A stretch of 64,000 bases of DNA from NCBI GenBank assembly GCA_037178675.1, contig JAYMGJ010000008.1:124001-188000 (forward strand), written 5' to 3'. This stretch comes from Scleroderma bovista (Eukaryota > Basidiomycota > Agaricomycetes > Boletales > Sclerodermataceae). A program made the translations under genes and the position numbers. A model generated the notes under the pieces. That model worked only from the letters and a program-made list of their open reading frames with translations, was not told the origin of the DNA and searched no databases. Below, piece after piece: positions 5,071 to 64,000 of this stretch. Position 1 is the first letter of the stretch. Every line of letters begins with the position of its first letter.

Positions 5071-6700
5071 TTATACAGCCTGTGGTGGAATTATAATTAC
5101 AAACTGTAAACAATCTTTTGGGAAATGTAATGATGGGAGGAGGTAGATAGACCAATTGGGAGGTCCCAGTCCAAGTTTCAGACAAAACGGCGGTCGGAAT
5201 AATATTCTACAGGTGATGCAAGCATGCTTGGGTACCGGAAACACATCTTATTAGGAAATATTCTGCAAGGATCAGGACCATTCCCATCATCTTCAGAGAT
5301 TAGGTTAGGTTACTTAGGGTGGAGCAAAAATCGCGAAGTGTCATATCCATACTTTTCCAGTCGCAACTCTGGTCTAACCATGGCCCGCCTGACCTCTCCT
5401 TAGGCATAGATGCAACTCCGGATCTAGTCCGGCCATCTCCAGCCCTATAGCTGCACTCCAGCTCAACTCCAGTCACTATGTCCATCTCCACCTCAGGACT
5501 AACCCCTGTCTTCCTACAGACAGATCCGCAGTCTAACTCCTCCATGTCCGACCTGTACCTACCACTAGTCGCTACTCCGGTTTCAGTCCAGCCACTCCCT
5601 TAGCCTTGTCTGCGACATAGCCCAACTCTGGCTGGTACATCCAACTCTGGCTCAGTTCTGCTCCTGCTCCTGCTCCACTTCCTCTGTCAGGTCCACCAAA
5701 GGCTTAGGACATTTCCATGTCCAACTCCGGACCTTCCTCCGGCTACTCCGCCCTTCCTCCACCTGTGCACTCCCTCCGCTCTTGCACTTCCTCCGGTCCC
5801 ACTTCCTCTGGTCCCACTTCCTCTGGTCCCACTTCCCCTGGTCCTGGACATCGCTCCGGACTTAACATTAGTTAAGTCCACCTCTGACCCTTACCTGTCC
5901 TCTTCCGACCTAGTTCCCTTGTCCCTGCTTTTCCTCTGTCGTCCCTGTAACTCTAGTTCCCCATGTCTGCTTCCGCTCTGGTTTATTTTCCTGTCCCTGC
6001 TTTATTTTCTTGTACCTGGTTTATTTTCCTGTCTGCTTCTGCTCCATCCCTTGTCTCGACATTAAGGTGTTTACTTGTCACCGTATATACTCACCTTAGT
6101 TTCATTACTATATAAACTACCGTACTCCGGCCTAGTAGTCCTTAGATCAAATCTCGACTAAGATACTCCCCACTCTGTACTACCCACCATGCTCTCCTAA
6201 ATCCATCTGTTCATCTGAACTCCTGAACTTCGGCCAACTCCGGCCTCCGTCCTATCTCGTCCCCTTGGTCCTATGTCTGATCCTAGCAAGTCTCCTACTT
6301 GCACAAGGGCAATAGCCACTTCTGTCCCAGACTTGACGCTAGACCTCTCAGGACTATCCCACCTCTGGGATGTCCTTCACTCCGGACAAGCTGCGCTCAA
6401 CTCCGGACCACTTTCCCGCAGTCCGGACTTACTCCGCAAAAACCTGGACTTACTCCCTGTGCTCCTCTAGTGCCCGGACTTCGTTCATTTGACCCGGACT
6501 TGACTCTCCGCACTAACTAGCACCTACTAGTGTCTGGACTTACCTCCTCATTAGTTCCCTGCACCTCTGGACCTCCTAGTAAGATCGTTGAGGAGAACCG
6601 GTTTTGACAATAGGTTGCCATACTGACTCACAATAGCACTGAAGCACCAATAACACAAAAGTATGGTGATGACATTAAAAACATTAAATAGTACTTCTCG
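5071..6700. repeat. Noncoding CTCCGG/CTCTGG-rich degenerate repeat
   Basis: Words such as aactccgg, cggactt and ctctgg recur throughout. Near 5787-5850 there are four tandem copies of a 15-bp unit (cacttcctctggtcc with small changes). No frame longer than about 80 codons has protein-like content. I see no gene here. Confidence 0.55.
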
Positions 6701-7632
6701 GGATCATGGTATGTTCATTCACCATGCCTTCCTGCAAGTCTCATCCAGTCCCCACATTCTACAATATGCCTGAGCCACCACAACCATTGCCCATGTTATT
6801 TTTGCAAATGGAGATGTGTTGCCAACCTAAAAATCCTGTAGCTGTATCTGCCAAGGAAGAGATGGCTATGTCACACCTTCTGATTGCTGCACCTGCTGTC
6901 TCAGGGGCAATAGTCAAAATGCAGCACATGACCACAACTAGAACCACTAACTCAAGAGCAACAACCCCCAGAGCTGCATCCCCTATCACAAAGCCCTCGG
7001 GAAGAGAATGCCTCTTGTACCCGAACCACCACCTTCCCCTTTGGGACAAGTTGTCCCCCCCACCAAGCATCAGTGTTCACCCACCTCACCATGCGCTGTG
7101 AGTCAAAGTGTGGATTTGGGTTGGAACAACAACCCAAACACAACACCAACAAAGGACTATGAAATTGTGCGAGTGGTGGTTTACCTCCGTGGTGTCCAGA
7201 GAGGATTTGCTGAGGAGGAGGGAAGGGGATCTACACCAACAGGGTGATGCAGATGATGATGCAGGATACTCCTGGGGTACAGGAGCAATAGAAGATGAAG
7301 GGGATAGGGGTCTGGACTCTTCCTATAGCCTAGGAAGTGTCAAAGTGGGGATTGGATTGACTGAGACTGAAGTGGCGATACTACACCTAGAGATTGGTGC
7401 AGCAAGGGGACAAGGGGGCTCCTGATGTCCAGAAGCAATGGGATATGAAGGATTGACAAACTAGACTCCGCTTGAGCCTAGGAAAAGACTTGGACTTGGA
7501 TAGATTGAATAAAACTTGAATATCAGAGCCTTTAGACCTTCACTGAAGCCTACAAGACTCAAAGAACTGAGGGGATACTGATTGAGAGGGACTGAGAAAG
7601 GGATAATTTCGTGCAATTCAGCTCTATGATCA

Positions 7633-7658
7633 CTGGGCTGAGCCCAGGGGTTTAAATA
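7633..7658 (-). promoter_or_regulatory. LTR A1 core promoter: TATA box plus dyad
   Basis: On the minus strand TATTTAAA (7658-7651) is followed after 3 bp by the perfect dyad CTGGGCT-c-AGCCCAG (7647-7633). Upstream, about 7690-7770, GTAAG words recur every 10-12 bp on the plus strand. The same layout occurs in all complete LTRs here. Confidence 0.6.
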
Positions 7659-8256
7659 CATGGGGGGGCACAGCATTAAAGTACAAAAAGAGAAGGGAGT
7701 AAGCAGAATTTGTCAAGGATTGGTAAGGGATTGGTAAGAGCTTTGTAAGGGGTTTGTAAGCAATCAGTAAGCAAGGCATAAGCATAGGGAGCATGAATAA
7801 GCTGCTGAGTAAAGGAATGAGTAAGCTGCATGACAAGATTGATTGGCAAGGGAGTGAGTCATCAGCTGAGTAATATACCAAAAATGCGAAAGGGATAGAG
7901 TAATACTGATGACAAGAGAGCATCAGTAAGCAAGGGATGAGTCACTGCACAGCAGAAGAGAGTCATTGATGCACAGCCCAAGAAGTTTGATGGGAGGCTG
8001 TGTACCATCAGGAACTTGATGGGACAACAATGGGGAAGATCTGGGATTAATAGGGGGATTGATCCAAGACAGAACAGACACAAGAAGGGTACCAGGGGTC
8101 CAGAGGTCTTTGGGGGGTCAGCATACATTAAGGTGTAATGCATGTGTTCTAGCACTGCTGTAGTGCAACCATGGGCTCCCTTGACGAGCTCTCTTCTGGG
8201 AAAGAACGAGAGAGGGTTCTTCTTCCTAATAGCACTCTAAAGTGGGGGAATAACTG

Positions 8257-8649
8257 TCATGGTGCTGGGGGACGTCGTCTGAAAGTAGGGAAGCAGATAG
8301 AGTATTGAATTTGATGCATCCAGGAAAGTGAGACAAATGACAAAGGAAGATGGACATGGCAAGTATCTGGGAGGAAGGGACCATATGATGAGGGCTCAGG
8401 GGACACAGAGATGACCAGAGATGACTTCTCAAGCTTGACAACAGACCTAAGACAACCAAAGTACATCCTTGATGCAGGACTGACGAGGAGAACGCGCTGA
8501 CTGAGAACAAGGGGGACTGAGGGAGCAGGCTGGGAAGATATGTGCCAGCCAGTGCATGGGAATCCAGGGAGAGGCTGTCCTAAGAGCAGGACATAGTGGA
8601 GATCTGCAGCAATAGCGGAGAAATGATCCAGAGAAAATACGGACTCCAT
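8257..8649 (-). CDS. LTR-encoded conserved protein, copy A1 (130 aa)
   Basis: The frame begins MESVFSLDHFSAIAADLHYV and ends in a basic proline tail (FPTFRRRPPAP). It lies in U3. Upstream codons stay open and conserved to about 8757 (WSICLSS, then SHRDIPPAIQT), where B-type copies have an ATG and A-type copies do not. Against the B copies, most differences are conservative (D/E, V/I, L/I, K/R) and the core SSQPAPSVPLVL is invariant. No signal peptide, membrane helix or known domain is evident. Conservation in an otherwise fast-changing LTR suggests selection on protein. The function is unknown. Confidence 0.6.
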   Translation of the reverse strand: MESVFSLDHFSAIAADLHYVLLLGQPLPGFPCTGWHISSQPAPSVPLVLSQRVLLVSPASRMYFGCLRSVVKLEKSSLVISVSPEPSSYGPFLPDTCHVHLPLSFVSLSWMHQIQYSICFPTFRRRPPAP

Positions 8650-10562
8650 AGTGAGCGATGAGACGAGTGTCTGGATTGCGGGGGGAATATCTCTGTGGGA
8701 AATGAACAGATTTATGTCAAAACTTGACAGGCAGATAGACCATGCTCTAGGCTCTCTGACGGTATAGTCACGTGCCTGATAGCTTCAGAAATGGTGGAGC
8801 TATTTGAAATATCGGAATGCCAGCACTGGGCACCTAAAAATGACATTTGGGTGCTAAAATCATTTCTTCTCTTCTTTCCTTCATTTCTCCTTCAATTCTT
8901 CAGCTTCTTTGCTCGTTCTGGTATGGGAGTTGGACTGCAATAGTGTGCATTCCTTTCTCATACCATAATAGACATTATTCATTCAGTTTCTTCTGCTTCT
9001 TGGTGGTTCTTGTGCAAGGGATGACTGTCAGCGTCGGCATTCATCTCTTGCATCAGGATAGTCTTCTTGTGCGATAGATGGCTATGATGAGGGTCCATTG
9101 TGCTTATCCTTCGCATAAGGATCATTCAATATAGTCGGTATCTTCCATGTTCACTGTACCAAACCTGTTTGGTGCATGACAGCACGATTCTTCTCTCAGA
9201 TATAGGAAAATGTTACCATGCTTTCCCCAGGGGCTCCTTCAGAGCTCAATTTCCCCTGCCTGCAGTCCCTCAATTGGTTTTCCATCACTTTAGTGCCCAC
9301 CCATTCTGTTGGTCCTGGATCACGAAAGCTGACCCCAATGCTGGCACATCATTCCAGGTACCCACTGTCCCAACCTTGTGTCCAAAGGACAGCCCCAAGG
9401 CTATCCATTGGATAGTCTCCATATTCCATGTGTTCAAGTCACAACTCGCTCCTCAGGCACTCAACCCAGAGATAGGCAGGGAGAACCCTGCCTATGTCAA
9501 ACTATACCAGAACAACATGCTGTTGCACCTCCATGCCCAACATGCCCACCTCATGGTGAGGAAACCACCCCCTGCATCCCCCACTTGCGCCGCCCCCCAG
9601 CCTGTTGCAAATATCCCCCCTCAACCCACCGGCACCATTGTGGAGCTCTGTGTGGAGATTGTGGCCTTGGGAAGAGAGGTCCAGGCCCTTTGATCTTTAC
9701 ATGAGGCTTCTTTCACAGCCCCACTCTCTCCACACACCGCCCCCACTGTGGTGCCCCCCCATCCCCCCTCCCCCTCCACCTCATCATCTATGTCTGTCAC
9801 CCAGGAGGGCATTGCCCATCCCCAGCACAAGTGGCTACAGGCTGTCTTAGATCATTGGCACTGCCCACCTCCCTTCCGCTCCATCAATTCCTCCATGACA
9901 CCCTTCTATCCATTTGATATCCCTGATGACATACAGCAAGTGTTGGAGGTGATCTTCACCTTGGACATGCTCCGGTTCATGGGTTTCGACTGCAATGGTG
10001 ATCTGGAGATCACCATCCGGTGTGCGCCTAAGTGAGGGAAGAGGTCAGAACAACCAACAACCAACACCAAATGACAGCAATATGCGAGTGGTGGTCCTCC
10101 TTTGCGGTTTTGGTATTTAATCTCCACAGGGGAAGGTGCTGCACGCCTTCAGGCAAGGTGCAGGAGGGAAGGGAAGGGCTTCTGATGGGGAATAGATGCG
10201 ACTGGGGATGGTATTGACTCCTCTTCAGCCTACCACAGTGGTTAGGAAGAGTCCTGGGATTGAGCAGCAGTGATGGAATGACAATAGGAGTGCAACAGCA
10301 GTGATGGAGCAACAGGGAAGCAAGGGGACAGTTCCTGCTTCAAGAATGCGATGGAGAGTGATGGGATAGAGTGGATAGAGATGCTAGACTGCGCTTCAGC
10401 CTAGAGAACTGATCAGATACAAGATATATCTGACAAACAACAATATAGGAGCTTTAGGCCAGCACTGAGTGACCTACAAGTCCAAAGACAGAGAGGGAGC
10501 TTATAGAGAGTGAGTGAGAGTGACTGTGGTCGCTTTATTGAGGGGGAAGCAGACACTTCCTT

Positions 10563-10588
10563 GCAGCCTTTGGCTGCTGGTTTATATA
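10563..10588 (-). promoter_or_regulatory. LTR B1 core promoter: TATA box plus dyad
   Basis: On the minus strand TATATAAA (10588-10581) is followed after 3 bp by GCAGCC-aaa-GGCTGC (10577-10563). The dyad sequence is unrelated to that of subfamily A, but position and symmetry are the same. CTTACCAAT-like words (10630-10680) lie just upstream. Confidence 0.6.
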
Positions 10589-11391
10589 CAGGAGGGGCTG
10601 TGGCCCTGTAAGCACAAATGACTAAGTGCTTGGTAAGAGATTGGTAAGAAATTGGTAAGCAATCAGTAAGCAGTGTAATCAGGCTGAGTCATCGATGGGG
10701 AAAGCCTAAACAAGCTGCTGAGCCAAGGGAATGAGCAGAAACATAGGTAAAAAGGGGTGCATAACCAAGAACATGGAAAAATCATTGCATGGGGCCCAAA
10801 AGAGAGGGGGGGAAAGCAGGGGATGAGTAGATCGAAGCTAAATGAGCATATGCGATGTCATAATGCATATGAATCATAGGGGCATGAGTCATGAATTAAT
10901 AAGCAGCATGATAAGCATGATTTGAAGGATGATTGGTAAGTGATTGGTAAGGGGAGTAATGGGGATTAGTAATGCCAAGAGGGGATGAATAATGCGCAGC
11001 AGAGTGAGTCAGAGTGAGCCAGAGTGAGTCAGAGTGAGCCAGAGTGAGTCAGAGTGAGCCAGAGTGACTCTGTGTGACTCAGACAGAAGGGAAGCACAAC
11101 CTATGATTTATTGAACTTTAGATCTGGAGATGAGCTTCTGAAGCAGTGCCACTGATGGGAGTGGCTGGGGGATAATAAGAGAATTGATCCAACCAAAATA
11201 GCAGTGTCAGGGGGCCTGGAATGACAAGTAGAGTCACAGCTGGTCACAGAGTGTCACAAATCCCTTGGGTTGAGCTTCTGTAGGACAAAAATGCAAAAAT
11301 TGGTGCTCCTGAAGTGCAGTCTTCCCTTGAGCAGTAAGGGGAAGGTTCTGTACTCTATAAGGGCTCCTAAGAAGGGTTCTAGAGCACTGTT

Positions 11392-11889
11392 TCATTCGTG
11401 TTTGTTGCGGGATAGCAGCGAAGTAAAACACAAGTAGTGGATTCGATGTGTCCAGGGAAGCAAGATGAATGATGGAGGGAGATGGATGTGACAGGACTCT
11501 GGGATAAAAGGACCATATGCAGAGGACTCAGGAGACACAGAGACAACCAGGTATGAATTTTCAAGTCTAACGATAGACTTGAGACGACCAAAGTATGTGT
11601 GCGACGCAGGACTGACAAGGAGAATGTGCTGACCGAGAACAAGAGGGACTGAGGGAGCAGGCTGGGAAGATATGTACCAGGCAGTACACAGGAGCTCAGG
11701 GAGAGGCTGTTCCAAGAGCAGAATGTAGTTGAGGTCTGCTGCAATAGCGGAGAAACGTTCCAGAGAAAATGCGGACTCCATAGTGACTGATGAAGCGGGT
11801 GTCTGGATTGCGGGTGGAATATCTCCGTGGGAAATAAACAGATTTACGTCGGAACTTGACAGGCAGATAGAGTACGGTCTAGGCTCCAT
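11392..11889 (-). CDS. LTR-encoded conserved protein, copy B1 (165 aa)
   Basis: The start is MEPRPYSICLSSSDVN. An internal methionine, MESAFSLERFSAIAADLNYI, aligns with the start of the A-type protein. The shared core includes SSQPAPSVPLVLGQ, LLVSPASHTYFG, SPESSAYGPF and CHIHLP. The C-terminus differs from the A type (SLLSRNKHE instead of FRRRPPAP), so the last 20 residues are not under the same constraint. The frame is uninterrupted. Its location is U3 of the LTR, upstream of the TATA box, so it would need its own promoter or a read-through transcript. Function unknown. Confidence 0.6.
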   Translation of the reverse strand: MEPRPYSICLSSSDVNLFISHGDIPPAIQTPASSVTMESAFSLERFSAIAADLNYILLLEQPLPELLCTAWYISSQPAPSVPLVLGQHILLVSPASHTYFGRLKSIVRLENSYLVVSVSPESSAYGPFIPESCHIHLPPSFILLPWTHRIHYLCFTSLLSRNKHE

Positions 11890-14149
11890 GATGGTATAGT
11901 CACGTGCCTGATAGCTTCAAAAACGGCAGAGCTATTCAAAATATCGGAATGCCAGCACTGGGTGCCTAAATTTGACATTTGGGTGCTAAAAATGATTCTT
12001 CTCTTTTTCCTTCGTTTCTCAATTGTTTCTTCTGCTACTTTGGTTGTTCTGGTATGGGAGTTGGACTGCATTTGCTTGCATTCCTTTCTCATACTGAAAT
12101 AGTCATTATTCCTTGGATTCCTCTGCTTCTTGGCGGTTCTCGTGCGATAGATGACTGTCAGCATTGGCATTCATCTCTTGCATCAGGATAGTCATTCTTG
12201 TGCGATAGATGGCTACGATGAGGATTGTATTCATTCTTCGCATAAGGATAGTCTTGACTTTGCATGATATGGATAGCGAGGGCTGTCTGTATCCCTCAAG
12301 TCGGGACAATCTTTCAACAGATCTTGGGTGTGCGTTCTTCGCATTAGTTTCATCGGCTAACTTTCTCCATGTCCACAGTACCAAACATGTTTGGTGCGTG
12401 ACACCAGGCCCCCCAGGAGTTGGTCATCACTGCTCTTGCCATGCCAGCCGGGGTGTTAATGCCCCCAGCCCCTAGTATATACTGCCCGATGTAGGTCGGG
12501 ATCTATCCCCCCCACCCTCCTCACCCCTTCTCCCCCTCCCCGTGATCCGGCACACTCTAGGTACATTTCCTGGGGTGGGCCACCTTGGTGGTCTGCCCTG
12601 TCCTGTGCTTACTGGCTTTTCCGGCACAGGCTCATGTCAGTGTTGAACATTTGAGTAGTCATGTTACCTTGCACATAGCTTGTATGTACATTAGCTTAGT
12701 GCAACATAGGGTCTGTTGACCCTCAATGCACTTAAATGGATTCAAAAAAAAAAAAAAAAAAGCCCTCGGGAAAATCAGTTGTTATCAACAAAGATGGAGG
12801 AGAAAGGTCCAACTCACCCTTGCCATCAGAGTCAAGTTTGTCATCTTTGGATGGAGATGAAGAAAGTAGCAATAAAATCCCTAAACCCACTGGCAAGGTG
12901 GGTCAGCCAGGGCATGGTGGCTACAATCTGGAGGAGCAGATGGGCTGGGGAGAGACTGGCTTCAAAAAATTGCCAGTAAGTTTTTGATGATGAAGGTTCA
13001 TAGCAGGGGACTCACCATTGCACCATTGAAGTGGTTTGTAAGGATCACTGTGACATGACCTCCATAGGCTATAGCTGCATTTCCCATCCTTGACAACTTT
13101 GAAGACTGCTGGCTGGTTCAAGATCTGGTACTCCTCCAATTGAAGTATACATCCACCAAATCTTGGCAGAAATGAAGGGTTAGATCTTCCCCTCCCCATC
13201 AGAGTAGTTAATATAAAACACACAATATGAATATTTTGCATTGGGCAGTGAGAACCTAAACTTAAAAATGTGAGGCCTTGTACAGCAACGGGATGCTGAT
13301 CAGCACCCACCAAACTACTACAGCGATGGGACTACTATATCTTATATTCATTATAACCTTACTACATTCATGTCATTTCATACTTATTGGGGATTCTACT
13401 ACTATTGCGACTATTTTATGACTACCAGACTACCATTATGATTATGTCTACTGGTATGGGTGAGGGGATGGTAAAGGAAGTGGAAAGGAAATACATGTGA
13501 AAATTGCAGCCTTATAAACTGAACGGCATTGAACCAGCACATGACTGTCAGGAGTTGAAACTTCCACCACTCAGTGACAGCAGTAGTAATTCTTTCTTTT
13601 CTTCCCCTATGTTCTTTGCTATATGTATCACATCGTTTTTCCTCCCCCCCAATCCACTAGTTAATAGCATTAGAACACTGTCAGTACTGTCAATAGACTA
13701 ATTAGATTAGCATGTAGTATCACAAAAGAATGTGCCACTGCCATCGCTTGTACATTGGTTATGAAGAAACAGATGGCCTGACAGACAAAGGCAGAACTGT
13801 TTGACCAGGCTGTGTTAGGTATGGATTTGTCAGCTGCTTAGTTGTGTTAATTCTAATGACTACAATGGTGTACAGCCCCATCCCTTGTTTGCCAAACATT
13901 GCCATCCGACATCTTGAAGTGTGGACTCATTTGTTGTACTGTGTCTCATCCCCCGACCCACCCCACTTTGTTTTGCCTTGAAGAAAGAATTCATGGAGAA
14001 GCTGGCAGAGAAGGAGTCATCAAGCACGAAGCATCAAGTGATGAATGTTGAGGACTACGAGGATGAACTAGTACAGAAGTCAAAGTACCCCCGGATGGAT
14101 GTTGGGACACCTGCCTATGAGAACAAAGGAATGCTGAGTGCGACATCAG

Positions 14150-14756
14150 GTATGTATCTCATCAATTTTAAGATATTGTCATCTCATCCACTGAACTTAG
14201 CCCATTCATTACTCAGGGATCCATCTGCCTGGCATCTGATAATGGACTGGGCTGAAGATAAAATTGGATACCCCGATTTTGACACAAGAGTTAGGGGACT
14301 CGGGTCACTGGTGACCACTTATCAGCACAATATTCATGTCATCTGATCCTTCCAATGAAGACCTGTGCCCCCCTCTGCTCTTGTTGAAGAAGCTATGCAG
14401 ACTCATAGTGTCAGCTTTGACGAGAATGCAGGACTGCCAAGCATGACATCAGGTATGTATCCCACCAATTCTGACTGAACTTGGCTGGCTCGTTACTCAA
14501 GGACCTGTCCGCCTGGCATCTGATAATGGACTGGGCTGAAGATACAATTGGGTACCCTGATTTTGACACCAAAATCAGGGAACTCAGGTCACCATACATC
14601 CATGGCAAGTGGAAACCACTCATTGACACAATATTCACATCATCTGACCCTTCCAATGAAGACTCCCGGCCACCCCCTGCTCTTGTCAAAGAAGCCATGC
14701 AGACTCATGGTGTCCACTTTGCTATTTCTGCATCTCTACCTAGTGTCTCAGCCAGC
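14150..14756 (+). repeat. Tandem duplication of an intron-exon unit of about 303 bp
   Basis: The splice donors at 14150 (gacatcag|gtatgtatc) and 14453 (gacatcag|gtatgtatc) are 303 bp apart. The exon that follows each encodes AWHLIMDWAED and YPDFDT. Sequence between copies has diverged by point changes and one short deletion. It looks like an old unequal-crossover duplication inside the gene relic. Confidence 0.7.
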
Positions 14757-14896
14757 CCAACCCCTCCCAGAGTGCTGTGCGACCTTCTTCTGGCAGGGCT
14801 TGTCAGCAACCGAAGCATTGAAAGGTGAATGTACAAAGGTTTCTCGACTTAGCTGCTGAGGACGAGGATGAGGATGAGGATAATGGCAAAGCCTGA

Positions 14897-15308
14897 GGGA
14901 GTGTAAGACGCCCCATCAATCAAGGGCCCTCTGGAAAAGAGACCTTTGCACATAATGTACCTACCTTGTCCCATTTAGATGGCCAGACAAGGGTGATATT
15001 CGCCCAGGTCTGATAGGCCAGCAGACGGGGAGCCTGGGAAAGACTGTCACCATGTAACATGGGTGGGTTGAACATTAGAGTATTGTCACTATGTGATATG
15101 GGTGGGCTGTTGTGTTGTTTAAGGATACATATCACCATGTCATGTGGGCCAGCTAGGATGCTACTGTACTGCATCTGAATGGATGGGTCAAGAGTTTATT
15201 GCATTGCAAATGTAATGGTGAGTACCATCAACTGGTGCGGTACATCTGCCAGTTAGGCAGTATTTGGGATCATTAATGCAGGATGCAGGGACTGGGATAC
15301 CCCAGGGT
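14897..15308. other. No gene recognised
   Basis: Noncoding sequence with two partial direct repeats (caccatgtaacatgggtggg and cactatgtgatatgggtggg, about 15050-15110). No motif-bearing frame. Confidence 0.5.
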
Positions 15309-15935
15309 CACTACACCTGTGCGGACTCACTGCACCTGCACAGACTCACTGCACCTGCGCAGACTCACTGCACCTGTGTGGACTCACTACACATGCGCGG
15401 ACTCACTGCATATGTGCAGACTCACTACACATGCATGCATGCACTGCACATGTTCAGATGCACTGCACATGTTCAGACACACTACACCTGTGCAGAATCA
15501 CCACACAGGTGTGGACTCACTGCACATGCAAGGATTCACTGCACATGCTTGGATGTACTACACCTGCACAGATGCACTACACCTGCCCGGACTGACCACA
15601 CAGGTGTGGACTCACTACACTGACTGACTACAGATGCGTGGACTCACTACACAGGTGCAGATGCACTACACCTATGCAGACTCACTACACCTATGCAGAC
15701 TCACTACACCTATGCAGACTCACTACACCTATGCAGACTCACTACAGATGCGTGGACTCACTGCACATGTCCAGACTCACTATGCATGTGCTAATGCACT
15801 ACACCTCCGCGGACTCAATACACATGGATGGACTCACTACACCTATGTGGACTCACTACACATGTGTGGACCCAATGCACATGCAAGGATTCACTGCAAA
15901 TGGTCGGAAGCACTATACCTGCACAGACTTACCAC
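15309..15935 (+). repeat. 19-bp minisatellite, about 33 units
   Basis: The consensus is close to actcactacacctatgcag, with perfect neighbouring copies at about 15680-15745 and diverged copies elsewhere. The unit length is not a multiple of three and contains no stop, so two overlapping frames stay open for over 110 codons each and cycle through the same tripeptides. These frames are not genes. Confidence 0.85.
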
Positions 15936-15941
15936 ACACGG

Positions 15942-17983
15942 TGTCACGCACCAAACAGGTTTGGTACAGTGAACATGGAAGATAATGCCTATATCGAATG
16001 ATCCTTATGCGAAGGATAAGCACAACGGACCCTCATTGTAGCCATCTATCGCACGAGAACCGCCAAGAAGCAGAAGAAACTGAAGGAATAACGTCAATTG
16101 TGGTATGAGAAAGGAATGCACACGTCTGCAGTCCAACTCCCATACCAGAACGATCAAAGAAGCCGAAGAATTGATGGAGAAACGAAGGAGAAAGAGAAGA
16201 AATGATTTTTAGCGCCCAAATGTCATTTTTAGGCGCCCAGTGCCGGCATTCCGATATTTTGAATAGCTCCATCGTTTCTGAAGCTATCAGGCACGTAACT
16301 ATACCGTCAGAAAGCCTAGAGCGTGGTCTATCTGCCTGTCAAGTTCCGACGCAAATCCGTTCATTTCCCACGGAGATATTCCCCCTGCAATCCAGACGTT
16401 CGCTTCATCGCTCACTATGGAGTCCGTATTTTCTCTGGATCATTTCTCCGCTATTGCTGCAGATCTCCACTATGTCCTGCTCTTAGGACAGCCTCTCCCA
16501 GAGTTCCCGTGCACTGCCTGGCACATATCTTCCCAGCCTGCTCCCTCAGTCCCTCTCGTTCTCGGTCAGCGCGTTCTCCTCGTCAGTCCTGCATCAAGGA
16601 CGTACTTTGGTCATCTTAGGTCTATTGTCAAGCTTGAGAAGTCTTCTCTGGTCGTCTCTGTGTCCCCTGAGCCCTCAGCCTATGGTCCCTTCCTCCCAGA
16701 TACTTGCCATGTCCATCTTCCTCTGTCGTTCGTCTCACTTCCCTGGATGCGTCGAATTCAATACTCTATCCGCTTCCCTACTTTCAGACGACGTCCCCCA
16801 GCACCATGACAGTTATTCCCCCCACTTTATAGTGCTATTAGGAAGAAGAACCCTCTCTCGTTCTTTCCCAGAACAGAGCTCGTCAAGGGAGCCCATGGTT
16901 GCGCTTCAGCGGTGCTAGAACACATGCACTATACCTTAGTGTATGCTGACCCCCCAAAAAGACCTCTGGACCCCTGGTACCCTTCTTGTGGCTGTTTTGT
17001 CTCGGATCAATCCACCTATTAATCCCAGATCTTCCCCATTGTTGTCCCATCAAATTCCTGATGGTACACAGCCCCCCCATCAAACTTCTTAGGCTGTGCA
17101 TCAATGACTCCTTCTGCTGTGCAGTGACTCATCCCTTGCTTACTGATGCTCTCTTGTCATCAGTATTACTCTATCCCTTTCGCATTTTTGGTATATTACT
17201 CAGCTGATGACTCACTCCCTTACCAATCAATCTTGTCATGCAGCTTACTCATTCCTTTACTCAGCAGCTTATTCATGCTTCCTATGCTTACTCATTCCTG
17301 CTTATCCCTTACTGATCGCTTACAAACCCCTTACAAAGCTCTTACCAATCCCTTACCAATCCTTGACAAATTCTGCTTACTCCCTTCTCTTTTTGTACTT
17401 TAATGCTGTGCCCCCCCATGTATTTAAACCCCTGGGCTCAGCCCAGTGATAGAAGACCCAATTGCACGAAATTATCCCTCTCTCAGACTCTCTCAATCAG
17501 TATCCCTTCAGTCTTTGAGTCCTTGTAGGCTTCAGTGAAGGTCTAAAGGCTCAATATTGTCAAGTTTATCCAAGTTATTCAAGATCTATTCTTTATACTA
17601 GGCTCAAGCGGAGTCTAGGCTTCATACCAGTCAATCTTCCTCGCCTCTGGACATCAGAGGCATCCCTGCCCCTTTGCTGCACCAATCTCTAGGTGTAGTA
17701 TCACTGTTTCAGTCTCAGTCTACCCAATCCCTGCTTTGACAACTTCCTAGGCTTTAGGAAGAGTCCAGACCCCTATCCCCTTCGTCCTCTATTACTCCTG
17801 TACCCCAGGAGTATCCTGCATCACCGTCTGCATCACCCTGTTGGTGTAGATCCCCTTCCCCCCTCCTCAGCACATCCTCTCTGGACACCGCGGAGGTAAA
17901 CCACCACTTGCACATTTTCGTAGTCCTTTGTTGGTGTTGTGTTTGGGTTATTACTCCGACCCAAGTCCACACTTTGACTCACA
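15942..17983 (+). mobile_element. LTR, subfamily A, copy A2, inverted (2042 bp)
   Basis: It starts TGTCACGCACC and ends GACTCACA, and is the reverse complement of copy A1 with several percent divergence. The left flank is cacgg (minisatellite side) and the right flank gtgtt (reverse transcriptase side). They do not form a target duplication, so the copy probably reached its present flanks by recombination. TATTTAAA lies at 17421-17428 and the dyad CTGGGCT/AGCCCAG at 17432-17446. Confidence 0.75.
16417..16809 (+). CDS. LTR-encoded conserved protein, copy A2 (130 aa)
   Basis: The frame is MESVFSLDHFSAIAADLHYV to FRRRPPAP, uninterrupted. It is open in frame upstream to about 16309 (RAWSICLSSSD, SHGDIPPAIQT) but without the distal ATG seen in B copies. 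It differs from copy A1 at about a dozen residues. No known domain is recognised. Confidence 0.6.
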   Translation: MESVFSLDHFSAIAADLHYVLLLGQPLPEFPCTAWHISSQPAPSVPLVLGQRVLLVSPASRTYFGHLRSIVKLEKSSLVVSVSPEPSAYGPFLPDTCHVHLPLSFVSLPWMRRIQYSIRFPTFRRRPPAP

Positions 17984-19086
17984 GTGTTCCTTTTCTCCAA
18001 AGTTAAATACCGTATCTTTACACGTAAGGTCCATCATGGGCCTAGCCATGATCGCATAATCTTTAATGAAGAGTCTATAGAAATTGCCGAGACCGAGGAA
18101 CGCGCGAACCTGCTTTACGTTCGTTGGCTCAGGCCACTTCAAAATAGCATTAACTTTTTCAGGGTCCATTTTGATACCCTCACATGACACGATCATTCCG
18201 AGGAAGTCGACTTCGGTGACTCGGAAGCGACACTTTTCGGGTTTGACAAACAAATCGTTATCACGTAAATGTTTCAAAACTTCCAGCACGATTCTATCAT
18301 GCCTTTCCTGATCGTCCGTATCCGTAAATATCATAAGGTCGTCGATATACACCACGCAGACATCCGACATATCGTGGAAGATTTCATTCATCATTTTCTG
18401 GAATGTCACGGGTGAATTACAGAGACCGAAATACATAACTAATGGCTTGAAAGCCCCTTTGTGCGTTACAAACGCAGCTTTCCACTCATCGCCTTCGCGG
18501 ATCCTCACATTATTGTAACCCCAACGAAGATCCATTTTCGTGAAGAGCTTACAACCCTTAAGCTTGTCAACAAGCTGAGAGATAAGCGGCAGCGGATAGT
18601 TATTCTTAATCGTCCAGTTGTTTACATAACGGTAATCCTGTACCATGCGCTTCTTGCCGTCCTTTTTCAGGATAAAGAAGACCGGTGACGTCTGCTGACT
18701 AATAGAAGGCCGAATATATCCTTTAGCAAGTTGATCATCAAGGAACAATTCGACTTCTTTTTGTTCATCAACAGAGAGCAGGATAAGTCTTCCCTTTTTG
18801 GGCAGGAAGTCTTCTTTTAGATCAATTCCATGATCCCAAGGTTTTCTTAGCAGCATGCGCTCTGACGACTTTTTACTAAATACGTCTAAGAACTCCCAGT
18901 ATTCTTTAGGCACCTGTTTCTGAGCTTCCTCTAGGGTCGACTCATCAATAGCGACCTTTGATTCATGAGCTTTTAAAGCTTGTACCCAAGTTTCCTGAGA
19001 TTCGTTTTCTCGTAATAACTTAGCAAAGCGTGTCTCTAAGAGTGACTTGCACTCAGGAGGACACCTAGTTAAATTAACTTTGCCGG
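17984..19086 (-). pseudogene. Ty3/gypsy pol fragment: reverse transcriptase, ends lost
   Basis: An uninterrupted frame runs the whole 1.1 kb between two LTRs. It starts (at 19086) GKVNLTRCPPECKSLLE, continues with VPKEYWEFLDVFSKKSS, the GYIRPSISQQTSPVFFI and KDGKKRMVQDYRYVN blocks, MDLRWGYNNVRI, FGLCNSPVTFQKMMN and the catalytic VVYIDDLMIF, then CRFRVTEVDFLGMIVS and VRAFLGLGNFYRLFI. It stops at NFGEKEH at the LTR border. Protease, RNase H and integrase are absent. The catalytic YIDD and the open frame suggest the fragment is young, but it is truncated at both sides. Whether it belongs to the same family as the flanking A and B LTRs is not shown. Confidence 0.85.
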
Positions 19087-21271
19087 TGTGCGCCTAAGTG
19101 AGGGAAGAGGTCAGAACAACCAACAACCAACACAAATGACAGCAAAATGCGAGTGGTGGTCTTCCGGATTGAAGAGTGATGATAGATTGATGACAGGGGT
19201 GTAACAGCAGTGATGGAGCAACAGGGAAGCAAGGGGACAGTTCCTGCTTCAAGAATGCGATGGACAGTGATGGGATAGAGTGGACAGAGATGCTAGACTG
19301 CGCTTCAGCCTAGAGAAATGATCAGATACAAGATATATCTGATAAACAGCAATATAGGAGCTTTAGGCCAGCACTGGGTGACCTACAAGTCCAAAGACAA
19401 AGAGGGAGCTTATAGACAGTGAGGGAGAGTGAATGTGGTCGCTTTATTGAGGGGGAAGCAGACACTTCCTTGCAGCCTTTGGCTGCTGGTTTATATACAG
19501 GAGGGGCTGTGGCCCTGTAAGCACAAATGACTAAGTGCTTGGTAAGAGATTGGTAAGAAATTGGTAAGCAATTGATAAGCAGTGTAATCAGGCTGAGTCA
19601 TCGATGGGGAAAGCCTGAACAAGCTGCTGAGCCAAGGGAAAGAGCAAAAACATAGGTAAAAAGGGGTGTATAACCAAGAATATGGAAAAATCATTGCATG
19701 GGGCCCAAAAGAGAGGGGGGGAAAGCATGGGATGAGTAGATCAAAGCTAAATGAGCATATGCGATGACATAATGCATATGAATCATAGGGGCATGAGTCA
19801 TGAATTGATAAGCAGCATGATAAGCATGATTTGAAGGATGATTGGTAAGTGATTGGTAAGGGGAGTAATGGGGATTAGTAATGCCAAGAGGGGATGGATA
19901 ATGCGCAGCAGAGTGAGTCAGAGTGAGCCAGAGTGACTCTGTGTGACTCAGAAAGAAGGGAAGCACAACCTATGATTTATTGAACTTTAGATCTGGAGAT
20001 GAGCTTCTGAAGCAGTGCCACTGATGGGAGTGGCTGGGGGATAATAAAAGAATTGATCCGACCAGAAGAGCAGTGTCAGGGGGCCTGGAATGACAAGTAG
20101 AGTCACAGCTGGTCACAGAGTGTCACAAATCCCTTGGATTGAGCTTCTGTAGAGCAAAAACGCGAAATTTGGTGCTCCCGAAGTGCAGTCTTTCCTTGAG
20201 CAGTAAGGGGAAGGTTCTGTACTCTATTAGGGCTCCTAAGAAGGGTTCTAGAGCACTGTTTCATTCGTGTTTGTTGCGGGATAGCAGGGAAGAGAATCAC
20301 AAGTAGCGGATTCGATGTGTCCAGGGAAGCGAGATGAATGATAGAGGGAGATGGATGTGACAGGACTCTGGGATGAAAGGACCATATGCAGAGGACTCAG
20401 GAGACACAGAGATGACCAGGTATGAATTTTCAAGTCTAACGATAGACTTGAGACAACCAAAGTATGTGCGTGACGCAGGACTGACGAGGAGAACACACTG
20501 ACCGAGAACAAGAGGTACTGGGGGAGCAGGCTGGGAAGATATGTACCAGACAGTACACAGGAGCTCAGGGAGAGGCTGTCCCAAGAGCAGGACATAGTTG
20601 AGGTCTGCTGCAATAGCGGAGAAATGTTCCAGAGAAAATGTGGACTCCATAGTGAGTGATGAAGCAGGTGTCTGGATTGCGGGTGGAATATCTCCATGGG
20701 AAATGAATGGATTTACGTCGGAACTTGACAGGCAGATAGACCACGGTCTAGGCTCCATGATGGTATAGTCACATGATTGATAGCTTCAAAAATGGTGGAG
20801 CTATTCAAAATATCGGAATGCCGGCACTGGGCGCCTAAATTTGACATTTGGGCGCTAAAAATGATTCTTCCTTTTCTCCTTTGTTTCTCTATCATTTCTT
20901 CTGCTACTTTGGTTGTTCTGGTATGGGAGTTGGACTGCAGTAGGTTGCATTCCTCTCTCATACTGAAATGATCACCAATCCTTGGATTCTTCTGCTTCTT
21001 GGCGGTTCTCGTGCGATAGATGACTGTCCATGTTGGCATTCATCTCTCGCATCAGGATAGTCATTCTTGTGCGATAGATGGCTACAACGAGCTTGTATTC
21101 ATTCTTCACATAAGGATAGTCTTGACTTTGCGTGATATGGATAGCGAGGGCTGTCTGTATCCCTCAAGTCGGGACAATCTTTCAACAGATCTTGGGTGTG
21201 CATTCTTCGCATTAGTTTCATCGGCTAACTTTCTCCATGTCCACAGTACCAAACATGTTTGGTGCATGACA
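19087..21271 (-). mobile_element. LTR, subfamily B, copy B2 (2185 bp)
   Basis: The ends are TGTGCGCC and GTGCATGACA. It is shorter than B1 by a deletion of about 150 bp near 19160 and has fewer 20-bp units (19912-19945). The flanks are ccgg (19083-19086) and ccgt (21272-21275), one mismatch from a 4-bp duplication. TATATAAA lies on the minus strand at 19497-19490, with the GCAGCC/GGCTGC dyad at 19486-19472. Confidence 0.75.
20297..20758 (-). CDS. LTR-encoded conserved protein, copy B2 (153 aa)
   Basis: It starts MEPRPWSICLSSSDVNPFIS and is open to HRIRYL, where a changed codon ends it 12 residues earlier than copy B1. The core (FSAIAADLNYVLLLGQPLPE, SSQPAPPVPLVLGQ, SPESSAYGPFIPESCHIHLP) matches the other copies. 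Premature loss of the tail only is consistent with the tail being dispensable. Confidence 0.6.
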   Translation of the reverse strand: MEPRPWSICLSSSDVNPFISHGDIPPAIQTPASSLTMESTFSLEHFSAIAADLNYVLLLGQPLPELLCTVWYISSQPAPPVPLVLGQCVLLVSPASRTYFGCLKSIVRLENSYLVISVSPESSAYGPFIPESCHIHLPLSFISLPWTHRIRYL

Positions 21272-42741: not shown

Positions 42742-43235
42742 CTTCATAGAACTGTTGCGCAATGGCCATCTCAGCTGCGAGGATGTATTTTTGCAGGCTC
42801 CTTCACGCCTCCGCTGGGAGTGAGAGGGGCGCGAGACTTAGTGAAATTCTGAGTGGATGGATGATTATATAATCGCACGTGGACAATTCAAACCCAGCAT
42901 AACCTTAATCCCCTCACACTCCCAGCGGGGGCTGCAAGAAAACATTTGTAAACAACATCAGCCACACGTCGGACTATGAAATAAAATGGGTTGCAAGACA
43001 ATAAATCTGGCGCGGTTATATAATAAACCACATGAGGCAGGTGCAGAGCATTATCTAATGTCGGAGCACAAATATTCACTAGGAAAACTTTCGAGTAGTA
43101 TTGACTAGCAAATAATGCTAATGGGGTGTGCACAAAAAAAAAGTACAAAGTACAAAGAGAGGACACATGTGTGTATATGATTGAAATGGGGCAAATGAGA
43201 AGGCAAGATGGGGCCTAAAAAGATTGCACACAAGG

Positions 43236-43289
43236 GGACTTGAACTGGCACCTTAGGTAAAAAGAAGAGGGACATCAACCATTAAGCCA
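43236..43289 (-). ncRNA. tRNA-like A and B boxes, left arm of the foldback
   Basis: On the minus strand TGGCTTAATGG (43289-43279) fits an A box and AGTTCAAGTCC (43246-43236) a B box, with tRNA-like spacing. The T and anticodon stems do not pair well, so this is a tRNA-derived or SINE-like promoter relic, not a functional tRNA. Confidence 0.45.
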
Positions 43290-43384
43290 TAAAGGCATTG
43301 TTATCTTTGTCATCAACGCAAATATGACTAAATGTAGTCGATTTGGTCATATTTGCATTGTTGACAATAACATTATTGGACTTT

Positions 43385-43438
43385 TAGTTCAATGGTTGAC
43401 ATCCTTCTTCTTTTTACCTAAGGTGCCAGTTCAAGTCC
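43385..43438 (+). ncRNA. tRNA-like A and B boxes, right arm of the foldback
   Basis: TAGTTCAATGG (43385-43395) and AGTTCAAGTCC (43428-43438) mirror the left-arm boxes with some changes. The same stem defects are seen. Each box could support polymerase III initiation, as in tRNA-derived SINEs. Confidence 0.45.
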
Positions 43439-49341: not shown

Positions 49342-49897
49342 ATGCCCAGAAAATACGGACTCCATAGTGAGCGATGAAGCGAACGTCTGGATTGCAGGGG
49401 GAATATCTCCGTGGGAAATGAACGGATTTGCGTCGGAACTTGACAGGCAGATAGACCACGCTCTAGGCTTTCTGACGGTATAGTCACGTGCCTGATAGCT
49501 TCAGAAACGACGGAGCTATTCAAAATATCGGAATGCCGGCACTGGGCACCTAAAAATGACATTTGGGCGCTAAAAATCATTTCTTCTCTTTCTCCTTCGT
49601 TTCTCCATCAATTCTTCGGCTTCTTTGATCGTTCTGGTATGGGAGTTGGACTGCAGACATGTGCATTCCTTTCTCATACCACAATTGACGTTATTCCTTC
49701 AGTTTCTTCTGCTTCTTGGCAGTTCCCGTGCGATAGATGACTGTCTGCATTGGCATTCATCTCTCGCATCAGGATAGTCGTCTTGTGCGATAGATGGCTA
49801 CGATGAGGGTCCGTCGTGCTCATCCTTCGCATAAGGATCATTCGATATAGGCATTATCTTCCATGTTCACTGTACCAAACCTGTTTGGTGCGTGACA
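49342..49897 (-). mobile_element. LTR, subfamily A, truncated copy A3 (556 bp)
   Basis: It matches the U3-start end of copies A1 and A2 from cagaaaatacggactccat to GTGCGTGACA. The rest of the LTR, including the TATA box, is missing. The right flank is ccgc. The sequence contains only the upstream part of the LTR-encoded frame. Confidence 0.8.
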
Positions 49898-51627: not shown

Positions 51628-51653
51628 ATACAGCCTGTGGTGGAATTATAATT
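51628..51653 (+). repeat. 26-bp partial duplication at the segment junction
   Basis: The 26 bp starting atacagcctgtggtgg are present twice in tandem here (51628-51653 and from 51654), whereas copy 1 has them once (from 5073). They link the minisatellite to the duplicated segment. Confidence 0.85.
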
Positions 51654-55762: not shown

Positions 55763-56601
55763 GCACGATTCTTCTCTCAGATATAGGAAAATGTTACCAT
55801 GCTTTCCCCAGGGGCTCCTTCAGAGCTCAATTTCCCCTGCCTGCAGTCCCTCAATTGGTTTTCCATCACTTTAGTGCCCACCCATTCTGTTGGTCCTGGA
55901 TCACGAAAGCTGACCCCAATGCTGGCACATCATTCCAGGTACCCACTGTCCCAACCTTGTGTCCAAAGGACAGCCCCAAGGCTATCCATTGGATAGTCTC
56001 CATATTCCATGTGTTCAAGTCACAACTCGCTCCTCAGGCACTCAACCCAGAGATAGGCAGGGAGAACCCTGCCTATGTCAAACTATACCAGAACAACATG
56101 CTGTTGCACCTCCATGCCCAACATGCCCACCTCATGGTGAGGAAACCACCCCCTGCATCCCCCACTTGCGCCGCCCCCCAGCCTGTTGCAAATATCCCCC
56201 CTCAACCCACCGGCACCATTGTGGAGCTCTGTGTGGAGATTGTGGCCTTGGGAAGAGAGGTCCAGGCCCTTTGATCTTTACATGAGGCTTCTTTCACAGC
56301 CCCACTCTCTCCACACACCGCCCCCACTGTGGTGCCCCCCCATCCCCCCTCCCCCTCCACCTCATCATCTATGTCTGTCACCCAGGAGGGCATTGCCCAT
56401 CCCCAGCACAAGTGGCTACAGGCTGTCTTAGATCATTGGCACTGCCCACCTCCCTTCCGCTCCATCAATTCCTCCATGACACCCTTCTATCCATTTGATA
56501 TCCCTGATGACATACAGCAAGTGTTGGAGGTGATCTTCACCTTGGACATGCTCCGGTTCATGGGTTTCGACTGCAATGGTGATCTGGAGATCACCATCCG
56601 G

Positions 56602-58984
56602 TGTGCGCCTAAGTGAGGGAAGAGGTCAGAACAACCAACAACCAACACCAAATGACAGCAATATGCGAGTGGTGGTCCTCCTTTGCGGTTTTGGTATTTA
56701 ATCTCCACAGGGGAAGGTGCTGCACGCCTTCAGGCAAGGTGCAGGAGGGAAGGGAAGGGCTTCTGATGGGGAATAGATGCGACTGGGGATGGTATTGACT
56801 CCTCTTCAGCCTACCACAGTGGTTAGGAAGAGTCCTGGGATTGAGCAGCAGTGATGGAATGACAATAGGAGTGCAACAGCAGTGATGGAGCAACAGGGAA
56901 GCAAGGGGACAGTTCCTGCTTCAAGAATGCGATGGAGAGTGATGGGATAGAGTGGATAGAGATGCTAGACTGCGCTTCAGCCTAGAGAACTGATCAGATA
57001 CAAGATATATCTGACAAACAACAATATAGGAGCTTTAGGCCAGCACTGAGTGACCTACAAGTCCAAAGACAGAGAGGGAGCTTATAGAGAGTGAGTGAGA
57101 GTGACTGTGGTCGCTTTATTGAGGGGGAAGCAGACACTTCCTTGCAGCCTTTGGCTGCTGGTTTATATACAGGAGGGGCTGTGGCCCTGTAAGCACAAAT
57201 GACTAAGTGCTTGGTAAGAGATTGGTAAGAAATTGGTAAGCAATCAGTAAGCAGTGTAATCAGGCTGAGTCATCGATGGGGAAAGCCTAAACAAGCTGCT
57301 GAGCCAAGGGAATGAGCAGAAACATAGGTAAAAAGGGGTGCATAACCAAGAACATGGAAAAATCATTGCATGGGGCCCAAAAGAGAGGGGGGGAAAGCAG
57401 GGGATGAGTAGATCGAAGCTAAATGAGCATATGCGATGTCATAATGCATATGAATCATAGGGGCATGAGTCATGAATTAATAAGCAGCATGATAAGCATG
57501 ATTTGAAGGATGATTGGTAAGTGATTGGTAAGGGGAGTAATGGGGATTAGTAATGCCAAGAGGGGATGAATAATGCGCAGCAGAGTGAGTCAGAGTGAGC
57601 CAGAGTGAGTCAGAGTGAGCCAGAGTGAGTCAGAGTGAGCCAGAGTGACTCTGTGTGACTCAGACAGAAGGGAAGCACAACCTATGATTTATTGAACTTT
57701 AGATCTGGAGATGAGCTTCTGAAGCAGTGCCACTGATGGGAGTGGCTGGGGGATAATAAGAGAATTGATCCAACCAAAATAGCAGTGTCAGGGGGCCTGG
57801 AATGACAAGTAGAGTCACAGCTGGTCACAGAGTGTCACAAATCCCTTGGGTTGAGCTTCTGTAGGACAAAAATGCAAAAATTGGTGCTCCTGAAGTGCAG
57901 TCTTCCCTTGAGCAGTAAGGGGAAGGTTCTGTACTCTATAAGGGCTCCTAAGAAGGGTTCTAGAGCACTGTTTCATTCGTGTTTGTTGCGGGATAGCAGC
58001 GAAGTAAAACACAAGTAGTGGATTCGATGTGTCCAGGGAAGCAAGATGAATGATGGAGGGAGATGGATGTGACAGGACTCTGGGATAAAAGGACCATATG
58101 CAGAGGACTCAGGAGACACAGAGACAACCAGGTATGAATTTTCAAGTCTAACGATAGACTTGAGACGACCAAAGTATGTGTGCGACGCAGGACTGACAAG
58201 GAGAATGTGCTGACCGAGAACAAGAGGGACTGAGGGAGCAGGCTGGGAAGATATGTACCAGGCAGTACACAGGAGCTCAGGGAGAGGCTGTTCCAAGAGC
58301 AGAATGTAGTTGAGGTCTGCTGCAATAGCGGAGAAACGTTCCAGAGAAAATGCGGACTCCATAGTGACTGATGAAGCGGGTGTCTGGATTGCGGGTGGAA
58401 TATCTCCGTGGGAAATAAACAGATTTACGTCGGAACTTGACAGGCAGATAGAGTACGGTCTAGGCTCCATGATGGTATAGTCACGTGCCTGATAGCTTCA
58501 AAAACGGCAGAGCTATTCAAAATATCGGAATGCCAGCACTGGGTGCCTAAATTTGACATTTGGGTGCTAAAAATGATTCTTCTCTTTTTCCTTCGTTTCT
58601 CAATTGTTTCTTCTGCTACTTTGGTTGTTCTGGTATGGGAGTTGGACTGCATTTGCTTGCATTCCTTTCTCATACTGAAATAGTCATTATTCCTTGGATT
58701 CCTCTGCTTCTTGGCGGTTCTCGTGCGATAGATGACTGTCAGCATTGGCATTCATCTCTTGCATCAGGATAGTCATTCTTGTGCGATAGATGGCTACGAT
58801 GAGGATTGTATTCATTCTTCGCATAAGGATAGTCTTGACTTTGCATGATATGGATAGCGAGGGCTGTCTGTATCCCTCAAGTCGGGACAATCTTTCAACA
58901 GATCTTGGGTGTGCGTTCTTCGCATTAGTTTCATCGGCTAACTTTCTCCATGTCCACAGTACCAAACATGTTTGGTGCGTGACA
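56602..58984 (-). mobile_element. LTR B1, duplicate
   Basis: Duplicate of 10021-12403, with flanks ccgg and ccag. Confidence 0.8.
57973..58470 (-). CDS. LTR-encoded conserved protein, B1 duplicate
   Basis: Identical to the frame at 11392-11889. Confidence 0.6.
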   Translation of the reverse strand: MEPRPYSICLSSSDVNLFISHGDIPPAIQTPASSVTMESAFSLERFSAIAADLNYILLLEQPLPELLCTAWYISSQPAPSVPLVLGQHILLVSPASHTYFGRLKSIVRLENSYLVVSVSPESSAYGPFIPESCHIHLPPSFILLPWTHRIHYLCFTSLLSRNKHE

Positions 58985-62522: not shown

Positions 62523-64000
62523 TGTCACGCACCAAACAGGTTTGGTACAGTGAACATGGAAGATAATGCCTATATCGAATGATCCTTATGCGAAGGATAA
62601 GCACAACGGACCCTCATTGTAGCCATCTATCGCACGAGAACCGCCAAGAAGCAGAAGAAACTGAAGGAATAACGTCAATTGTGGTATGAGAAAGGAATGC
62701 ACACGTCTGCAGTCCAACTCCCATACCAGAACGATCAAAGAAGCCGAAGAATTGATGGAGAAACGAAGGAGAAAGAGAAGAAATGATTTTTAGCGCCCAA
62801 ATGTCATTTTTAGGCGCCCAGTGCCGGCATTCCGATATTTTGAATAGCTCCATCGTTTCTGAAGCTATCAGGCACGTAACTATACCGTCAGAAAGCCTAG
62901 AGCGTGGTCTATCTGCCTGTCAAGTTCCGACGCAAATCCGTTCATTTCCCACGGAGATATTCCCCCTGCAATCCAGACGTTCGCTTCATCGCTCACTATG
63001 GAGTCCGTATTTTCTCTGGATCATTTCTCCGCTATTGCTGCAGATCTCCACTATGTCCTGCTCTTAGGACAGCCTCTCCCAGAGTTCCCGTGCACTGCCT
63101 GGCACATATCTTCCCAGCCTGCTCCCTCAGTCCCTCTCGTTCTCGGTCAGCGCGTTCTCCTCGTCAGTCCTGCATCAAGGACGTACTTTGGTCATCTTAG
63201 GTCTATTGTCAAGCTTGAGAAGTCTTCTCTGGTCGTCTCTGTGTCCCCTGAGCCCTCAGCCTATGGTCCCTTCCTCCCAGATACTTGCCATGTCCATCTT
63301 CCTCTGTCGTTCGTCTCACTTCCCTGGATGCGTCGAATTCAATACTCTATCCGCTTCCCTACTTTCAGACGACGTCCCCCAGCACCATGACAGTTATTCC
63401 CCCCACTTTATAGTGCTATTAGGAAGAAGAACCCTCTCTCGTTCTTTCCCAGAACAGAGCTCGTCAAGGGAGCCCATGGTTGCGCTTCAGCGGTGCTAGA
63501 ACACATGCACTATACCTTAGTGTATGCTGACCCCCCAAAAAGACCTCTGGACCCCTGGTACCCTTCTTGTGGCTGTTTTGTCTCGGATCAATCCACCTAT
63601 TAATCCCAGATCTTCCCCATTGTTGTCCCATCAAATTCCTGATGGTACACAGCCCCCCCATCAAACTTCTTAGGCTGTGCATCAATGACTCCTTCTGCTG
63701 TGCAGTGACTCATCCCTTGCTTACTGATGCTCTCTTGTCATCAGTATTACTCTATCCCTTTCGCATTTTTGGTATATTACTCAGCTGATGACTCACTCCC
63801 TTACCAATCAATCTTGTCATGCAGCTTACTCATTCCTTTACTCAGCAGCTTATTCATGCTTCCTATGCTTACTCATTCCTGCTTATCCCTTACTGATCGC
63901 TTACAAACCCCTTACAAAGCTCTTACCAATCCCTTACCAATCCTTGACAAATTCTGCTTACTCCCTTCTCTTTTTGTACTTTAATGCTGTGCCCCCCCAT
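62523..64000 (+). mobile_element. LTR A2, duplicate, cut by the window end
   Basis: Duplicate of 15942-17419. The last base of the window is one base short of the TATA-box region (17421-17428 in copy 1). Confidence 0.8.
62998..63390 (+). CDS. LTR-encoded conserved protein, A2 duplicate
   Basis: Identical to the frame at 16417-16809. Confidence 0.6.
   Translation: MESVFSLDHFSAIAADLHYVLLLGQPLPEFPCTAWHISSQPAPSVPLVLGQRVLLVSPASRTYFGHLRSIVKLEKSSLVVSVSPEPSAYGPFLPDTCHVHLPLSFVSLPWMRRIQYSIRFPTFRRRPPAP

Follow-up and report, generated by a model that had tools for sequence, protein, structure and literature searches.

Long terminal repeats (LTRs) are usually regarded as regulatory DNA, and solo LTRs as inactive remnants. 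The locus described here, a 64-kb stretch of the Scleroderma bovista genome (51.8 Mb in 850 contigs; positions 124001-188000 of contig C8, hereafter the window), raises the question of whether such a repeat can also hold a gene, as LTRs of two subfamilies, A and B, carry the same open reading frame (ORF). Comparison of the copies leads us to consider it likely that the frame is a real accessory gene, which a Ty3-type retrotransposon carries in the U3 (unique 3′) part of its long LTRs, and that selection has kept it on the replicating lineage.

An open reading frame in four complete LTRs

The window contains four complete LTRs of 2,042-2,383 bp, each with the frame on its sense strand and in its upstream part. 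Lengths of ORFs are in amino acids (aa).

7097..9181, minus strand: LTR A1, TGTCATGC...CTCACA, 4-bp flanks GTGC/GCGC, ends set by pattern
8257..8649, minus strand: A1 ORF, 130 aa
10021..12403, minus strand: LTR B1, TGTCACGC...GCGCACA, flanks CTGG/CCGG
11392..11889, minus strand: B1 ORF, 165 aa, conserved core from the ATG at 11781
15942..17983, plus strand: LTR A2, 2042 bp, flanks ACGG/GTGT, without duplication
16211..16416, plus strand: gap-poor block of ~200 bp 5′ of the A2 start codon, putative promoter and leader
16417..16809, plus strand: A2 ORF, 130 aa, start context CTCACTATGG
17421..17428, plus strand: TATTTAAA, downstream of the ORF, candidate TATA box for the promoter of the element itself
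19087..21271, minus strand: LTR B2, 2185 bp, flanks ACGG/CCGG
20297..20758, minus strand: B2 ORF, 153 aa, stop earlier than in B1, core ATG at 20650

The four ORFs lie exactly where the initial annotation of this DNA had placed them. It had given those positions as the LTR copies themselves, whereas they delimit the ORFs; the genuine LTRs around them do hold the frame. Its count of four independent complete copies also holds, as window positions 5071-17419 recur at 51652-64000 in an exact 12,349-bp repeat, offset by 46,581 bp, and the one further copy is truncated. LTR A1 is probably solo, because its two flanks differ by one C/T only. Near its 3′ end, LTR B2 lacks ~156 bp relative to the majority of sampled B copies. 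An array of 19-bp tandem repeats (15214-16020) lies immediately upstream of LTR A2.

Pattern of substitution in the frame

Copies were sampled blind to the frame, by similarity at the U5 (unique 5′) end; 20 A and 20 B places were fetched of 40 + 40 listed, and 15 + 15 were used. The A places left out were L065, L067, L070 and L080, which had no homologous U3, and L069, in which homology reaches the end of the fetched stretch; the B places left out were L085-L088 and L090. Between the two sets, the ratio of non-synonymous to synonymous change (dN/dS, ω) over 116 codons was 0.28 (bootstrap 0.16-0.45), or 0.35 (bootstrap 0.21-0.56) with transitions weighted four-fold, and 0 of 5,000 bootstraps reached ω = 1 under either weighting. 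The 42 fixed A-B differences, scored in the blind copies together with window A2 and B1, fall on codon positions 1, 2 and 3 as 9, 6 and 27; 22.5 of them were silent against 12.5 expected, a value matched in 4 of 20,000 random placements. This excess of silent-site changes is what argues strongly for coding. As read from the sequences, selection holds for the A-B split, and the deeper protein families described below support it; the earlier proposal that the frame is, or was until recently, under selection is borne out to that extent.

The remaining frames were scored in copies selected by their protein (31 A and 31 B). Frames +1 and +2 gave A-B ratios of 1.6-2.4. Stops in frame +1 occurred in 31/31 A copies and 1/31 B copies, and each of the 62 copies held 3-10 stops in each of the remaining four frames. 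Antisense coding in reverse frame -1, where the ratio is 0.18-0.27, was considered and rejected, as this frame has 4-6 stops in each of the 62 copies; its ratio is low because third positions face each other. The N-terminal extension, considered as possible coding sequence, gave a ratio of 0.50-0.67 on ~14 differences, and A has no start codon there. For the element's reverse transcriptase (RT), ω between A and B was 0.13-0.17. By these ratios the LTR gene is constrained, though less than the RT of its element.

Indels in the 15 blind A copies numbered two inside the frame and three in the 220 bp upstream, and in seven of these copies the length differs by 1 base immediately after the stop. 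The frame of the 15 blind B copies was free of indels; upstream of it, we found one 1-base deletion and one ~100-bp duplication.

The element is a Ty3-type LTR retrotransposon

The structure of a whole element is seen on contig C274, where two direct A LTRs of 2,101 bp, 99.86% identical and with TG...CA ends, both carry the frame without a stop (C274:20963 and C274:37025). Between them lie two ORFs on the same strand as the LTR ORF, gag/protease of 847 aa and pol of 1,296 aa. The gag ORF matches DUF4100 above cut-off and three aspartyl protease models below their curated cut-offs; the pol ORF matches RVT_1, RT_RNaseH_2, Integrase_H2C2 and rve above cut-off, with RT upstream of integrase, which is the Ty3 order. 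Two bases past the 5′ LTR, TGGAGCCCACCGCGAGG is a candidate tRNA primer binding site, and the element's flanks, GCGG/CCGC, are not identical. A second Ty3-type element is nested in the interior; by eye it is a candidate chromodomain-bearing element. An RT fragment in the window beside B2 (17951-18913) belongs to another Ty3 family and has nearly the same protein as this nested element; on that sequence, the fragment is not part of the A/B elements.

Solo LTRs flanked by 4-bp target duplications make up many of the sampled A and B copies. Among 26 + 26 single LTRs examined, the 4-bp flanks were identical in 18/25 A and 13/19 B copies with both ends found. The flanks have CG at their centre (NCGN) in 78 of 88 cases (L001-L060), and the LTR ends are TGTCA. 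Four exact duplicates per family are left out of these flank counts and of the start-context and upstream-divergence counts below. Searched against the genome, the A2 protein gave 1,177 first-look candidates and the B2 protein 1,216, with the best 150 scored in each case; the two candidate sets overlap, and those beyond the scored 150 are unconfirmed as places. One stop was present in 7 of the best 150 A matches (of 1,177), in scored lists that favour intact frames.

A terminal-inverted-repeat element, suggested by convergent pairs of equal score, was rejected: L028/L029 proved to be two LTRs with their own 4-bp duplications, and the C274 LTRs are direct. An inverted pair of A LTRs does lie on C320 (L063, C320:53000-59500), with arms 99.9% identical over 2,085 bp and ~1.2 kb apart, and several further convergent pairs of equal score exist.

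Conserved non-coding DNA precedes the start codon

Compared over 12 copies of each subfamily, A and B differed by 0.107-0.118 per site in the 240 bp preceding the ATG, with no third-position excess or periodicity, and by 0.193 and 0.152 in the DNA further upstream. Within the frame, the difference was 0.103 at codon position 1, 0.091 at position 2, 0.284 at position 3 and 0.254 at four-fold sites. The stretch in front of the ATG thus equals codon positions 1 and 2 in its conservation, which means that cis-regulatory constraint contributes; we infer that this stretch is the promoter and leader of the gene. The start context given above for A2 is kept in 25/26 A and 26/26 B protein-selected copies. 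The E-box CACGTG was rejected as a conserved promoter mark, being present at -125 in 22/26 A and 0/26 B of these copies.

The protein family and its predicted structure

The profile search proposed by the initial annotation found four further protein families in public genomes and metagenomes, with 51-64% identity in the core. Conserved residues run across the five families; in the LTR frame, a conserved core of 116 codons is followed by a variable tail. Sampled A copies seem to have a frameshift near the gene end (next frame at 16607-16918 of the window), by which the tail known from other families was replaced and the core kept. Searches of the genome with P0109, P0105 and P0116 (best 150 each) returned only places of 54-64% identity, A/B-like by position and identity. 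Pattern matches considered as relatives elsewhere numbered 36 among viral contigs and 24 among those of GTDB, and none was confirmed.

A Pfam scan of the protein gave no family above cut-off, and a PDB search no sequence relative; the profile search gave 255 matches, and the 120 listed are all without a Pfam domain. Two predicted models comprise a helix and a small β-barrel, with weak structural matches, and Tudor/SH3-like barrel proteins were considered as candidate structural relatives; a fold search among viral models returned nothing at E 0.001 or better. That no fold family is listed does not argue for a new fold.

A and B LTRs share their upstream half

One A-B pair was aligned whole (L023 and L057). 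Homology of ~84% covers A positions 1-38 and 60-901, and the frame occupies 533-925 of the aligned A LTR, so that homology begins close to the LTR start and continues almost to the frame end; past it, only short pieces match, at 71-87%. The initial annotation had described the rest of the LTR as having indels and no other frame surviving in both subfamilies: no other frame is indeed open in both, but the rest of the LTR is better described by the extent of homology just given. In 35 of 42 A-B pairs, the RT genes found close to the LTRs have 90-93% DNA identity, and A and B are close relatives on this ground. The group labels rest on nearby LTR matches; the remaining 7 pairs involve L114, grouped as B by its nearby LTR, with an A-like RT, and left in. 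From these alignments, the 3′ halves of the A and B LTRs were more likely exchanged than slowly diverged.

A third LTR type, at C181 (L120), has the B 3′ half (93%, B1 positions 1173-2376) after a different upstream part. By partial sequence, this upstream part occurs at four further places. Among the B places sampled by U5 end (20 fetched, 40 listed), the type accounts for five, L085-L088 and L090; C181 and three of the four further places have an inverted B LTR next to them and could have arisen from one by duplication. Such an arrangement would fit an exchange of LTR halves, and the LTRs of this group look modular. A cousin family, with an RT 54% identical, has 246-bp direct repeats (99.2%) that we take to be its LTRs, in the one copy examined.

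Weighing the explanations

Several observations weigh against a gene under selection. An open frame is weak evidence, because equally long ORFs are not rare in shuffled LTRs: after dinucleotide-preserving shuffling, an equally long same-strand ORF from an ATG appeared in 31 of 400 trials with the A2 LTR, so the A2 length is not significant, and in 8 of 400 with the B1 LTR, while 42 random changes left the core stop-free in 23% of trials. The non-coding DNA before the ATG is conserved as strongly as protein-changing sites. The initial annotation had looked to a dN/dS well below 1 for support; this is found between the subfamilies, but ω within A and within B is 0.36-0.70, and the changes there lie near random placement. 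Four of the 15 blind A copies are broken, by two indels and two stops. The protein tail is not conserved, and A appears frameshifted there. The upstream part of the third LTR type is without a match to the ORF cassette, and no relative of the frame is present in the examined copy of the cousin element; because these two do without the gene, not every relative requires it.

The upstream half of the LTR could be conserved as cis-regulatory DNA, with the open frame a by-product and its protein unused. This would explain the low divergence of the 240 bp upstream of the start codon, comparable to that of codon positions 1 and 2, and shuffled LTRs do yield frames of this length. It sits poorly with the high divergence of third positions and four-fold sites inside the frame, next to upstream DNA without periodicity, with the low ω between A and B, and with residues conserved across five families, and we consider it unlikely. 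A functional accessory gene selected before and during the A-B split and relaxed recently, the present copies being relics, overlaps the reading we favour and deserves serious thought, though we put its chances below even. Near-neutral change within each family, the broken A copies and the cassette-less LTR type, most of whose places may be duplicates, all speak for it. Such change fits recent relaxation and is also expected for dead solo LTRs, which many sampled copies are; moreover, the frame is open in 15/15 blind B copies, and 22 of the best 150 scored A places (of 1,177) match the A2 protein at 100%. A captured fragment of a host gene, carried passively in the LTR, appears very improbable. 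The frame is lineage-specific and has no relative in the cousin element, as such a capture would predict, but no host source is in sight, because the Pfam, PDB and profile searches named above gave none (host proteomes were not searched by name), and a passive passenger would not hold an ω of 0.28.

How an LTR gene might work

For a gene kept by selection, the upstream half of the LTR would form a cassette, in which ~200 bp of conserved non-coding DNA, the putative promoter and leader, precede the 116-codon core and variable tail. Because of its location in the LTR, the gene would be present twice per element and persist in solo LTRs; selection would keep the protein on the replicating lineage, and solo copies would drift. 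A short message may start upstream of the frame and end in the LTR, with its own promoter in any LTR; alternatively, the 3′ LTR portion of the element RNA may supply the frame as a 3′ message, as for Sag of mouse mammary tumour virus (MMTV). The product may help the element in trans, which is a guess, and it may be a regulator of the element, as the initial annotation proposed. It is a further guess, and one more apt to be wrong than right, that the predicted helix-plus-β-barrel protein acts on chromatin or nucleic acid, aiding expression or integration of the element. A bolder proposal, which we think rather improbable, makes each solo LTR a self-sufficient mini-gene with promoter, ORF and its own polyadenylation region. 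Hundreds of places, perhaps more than 1,000, would then provide a dispersed supply of a small barrel protein acting in trans, perhaps to counter host silencing or to guide integration towards CG-centred sites. LTR types without the gene (the third, or C, type) would live off it.

Relation to known systems

An LTR-encoded accessory protein would have a precedent in kind in MMTV. According to PMC3840357, sag is an LTR ORF read as protein, and Sag, a type 2 transmembrane glycoprotein, is read from the 3′ LTR, where Rem is also placed. Like sag, the frame described here is a sense-strand ORF inside the LTR of an LTR retroelement; unlike Sag, its product is predicted as a small helix plus β-barrel, in a Ty3-type element and without immune context. 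The comparison with MMTV drawn in the initial annotation is apt as an analogy of position and goes no further.

Plant LTR retrotransposons have additional ORFs beyond gag-pol, such as the Retand antisense ORFs, and some are thought to bind DNA and regulate transposition (PMC11963269). The gene here would likewise be an accessory gene beyond gag-pol. The plant ORFs are internal, between pol and the 3′ LTR, and mostly antisense, whereas ours is inside the repeat, sense and retained in solo LTRs; a review of such additional ORFs (PMC7264820), searched for wording that places them in, within or inside the LTR, gave no such passage. Ginger1 DNA transposons have 4-bp duplications of type CCGG or CCGT/ACGG and TGTNR ends (PMC2836005), to which the mostly NCGN flanks and TGTCA ends here are similar, in an LTR retrotransposon. 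Ginger1 membership was rejected: those transposons have terminal inverted repeats (40-270 bp), a transposase and no RT, whereas direct LTRs and an RT are found here.

Judged by title and abstract opening among the matches listed, which include few subscription journals, the literature gave no protein gene in the LTR of a fungal retrotransposon. The term 'LTR ORF' in papers on Talaromyces (PMC12037069) and Heliconius (PMC4016481) refers to element polyprotein ORFs and non-LTR ORFs. Among the papers searched, no LTR-borne orphan protein family was found for a Ty3-type element from outside animals. A selected gene inside the LTR would mean that LTR-LTR recombination, a usual removal route, leaves the gene in place. 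It would parallel the MMTV LTR gene outside animals, in a protein family that is an orphan and has five branches or more, and would offer a testable case of element remains helping in trans.

Further copies and features in the window

The truncated LTR and the copies in the exact second segment are as follows.

49348..49897, minus strand: truncated LTR, 5′ part only, ending just past the start codon
54838..55230, minus strand: copy of the A1 ORF in the second segment, offset 46,581, ATG at 55230
57973..58470, minus strand: copy of the B1 ORF in the second segment, offset 46,581, core ATG at 58362
62998..63390, plus strand: copy of the A2 ORF in the second segment, its LTR running past the window end

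Read from 49897 to 49348, the truncated LTR breaks off 17 bases past the beginning of its ATG. ORF copies spaced by 46.58 kb, perfect or nearly so, also occur on contigs C36 and C480. This spacing of ORF copies suggests a 46.6-kb tandem segment or assembly redundancy. Elsewhere in the window, positions 42794-43881 form a near-perfect palindrome of ~1.09 kb, 95.5% self-complementary.

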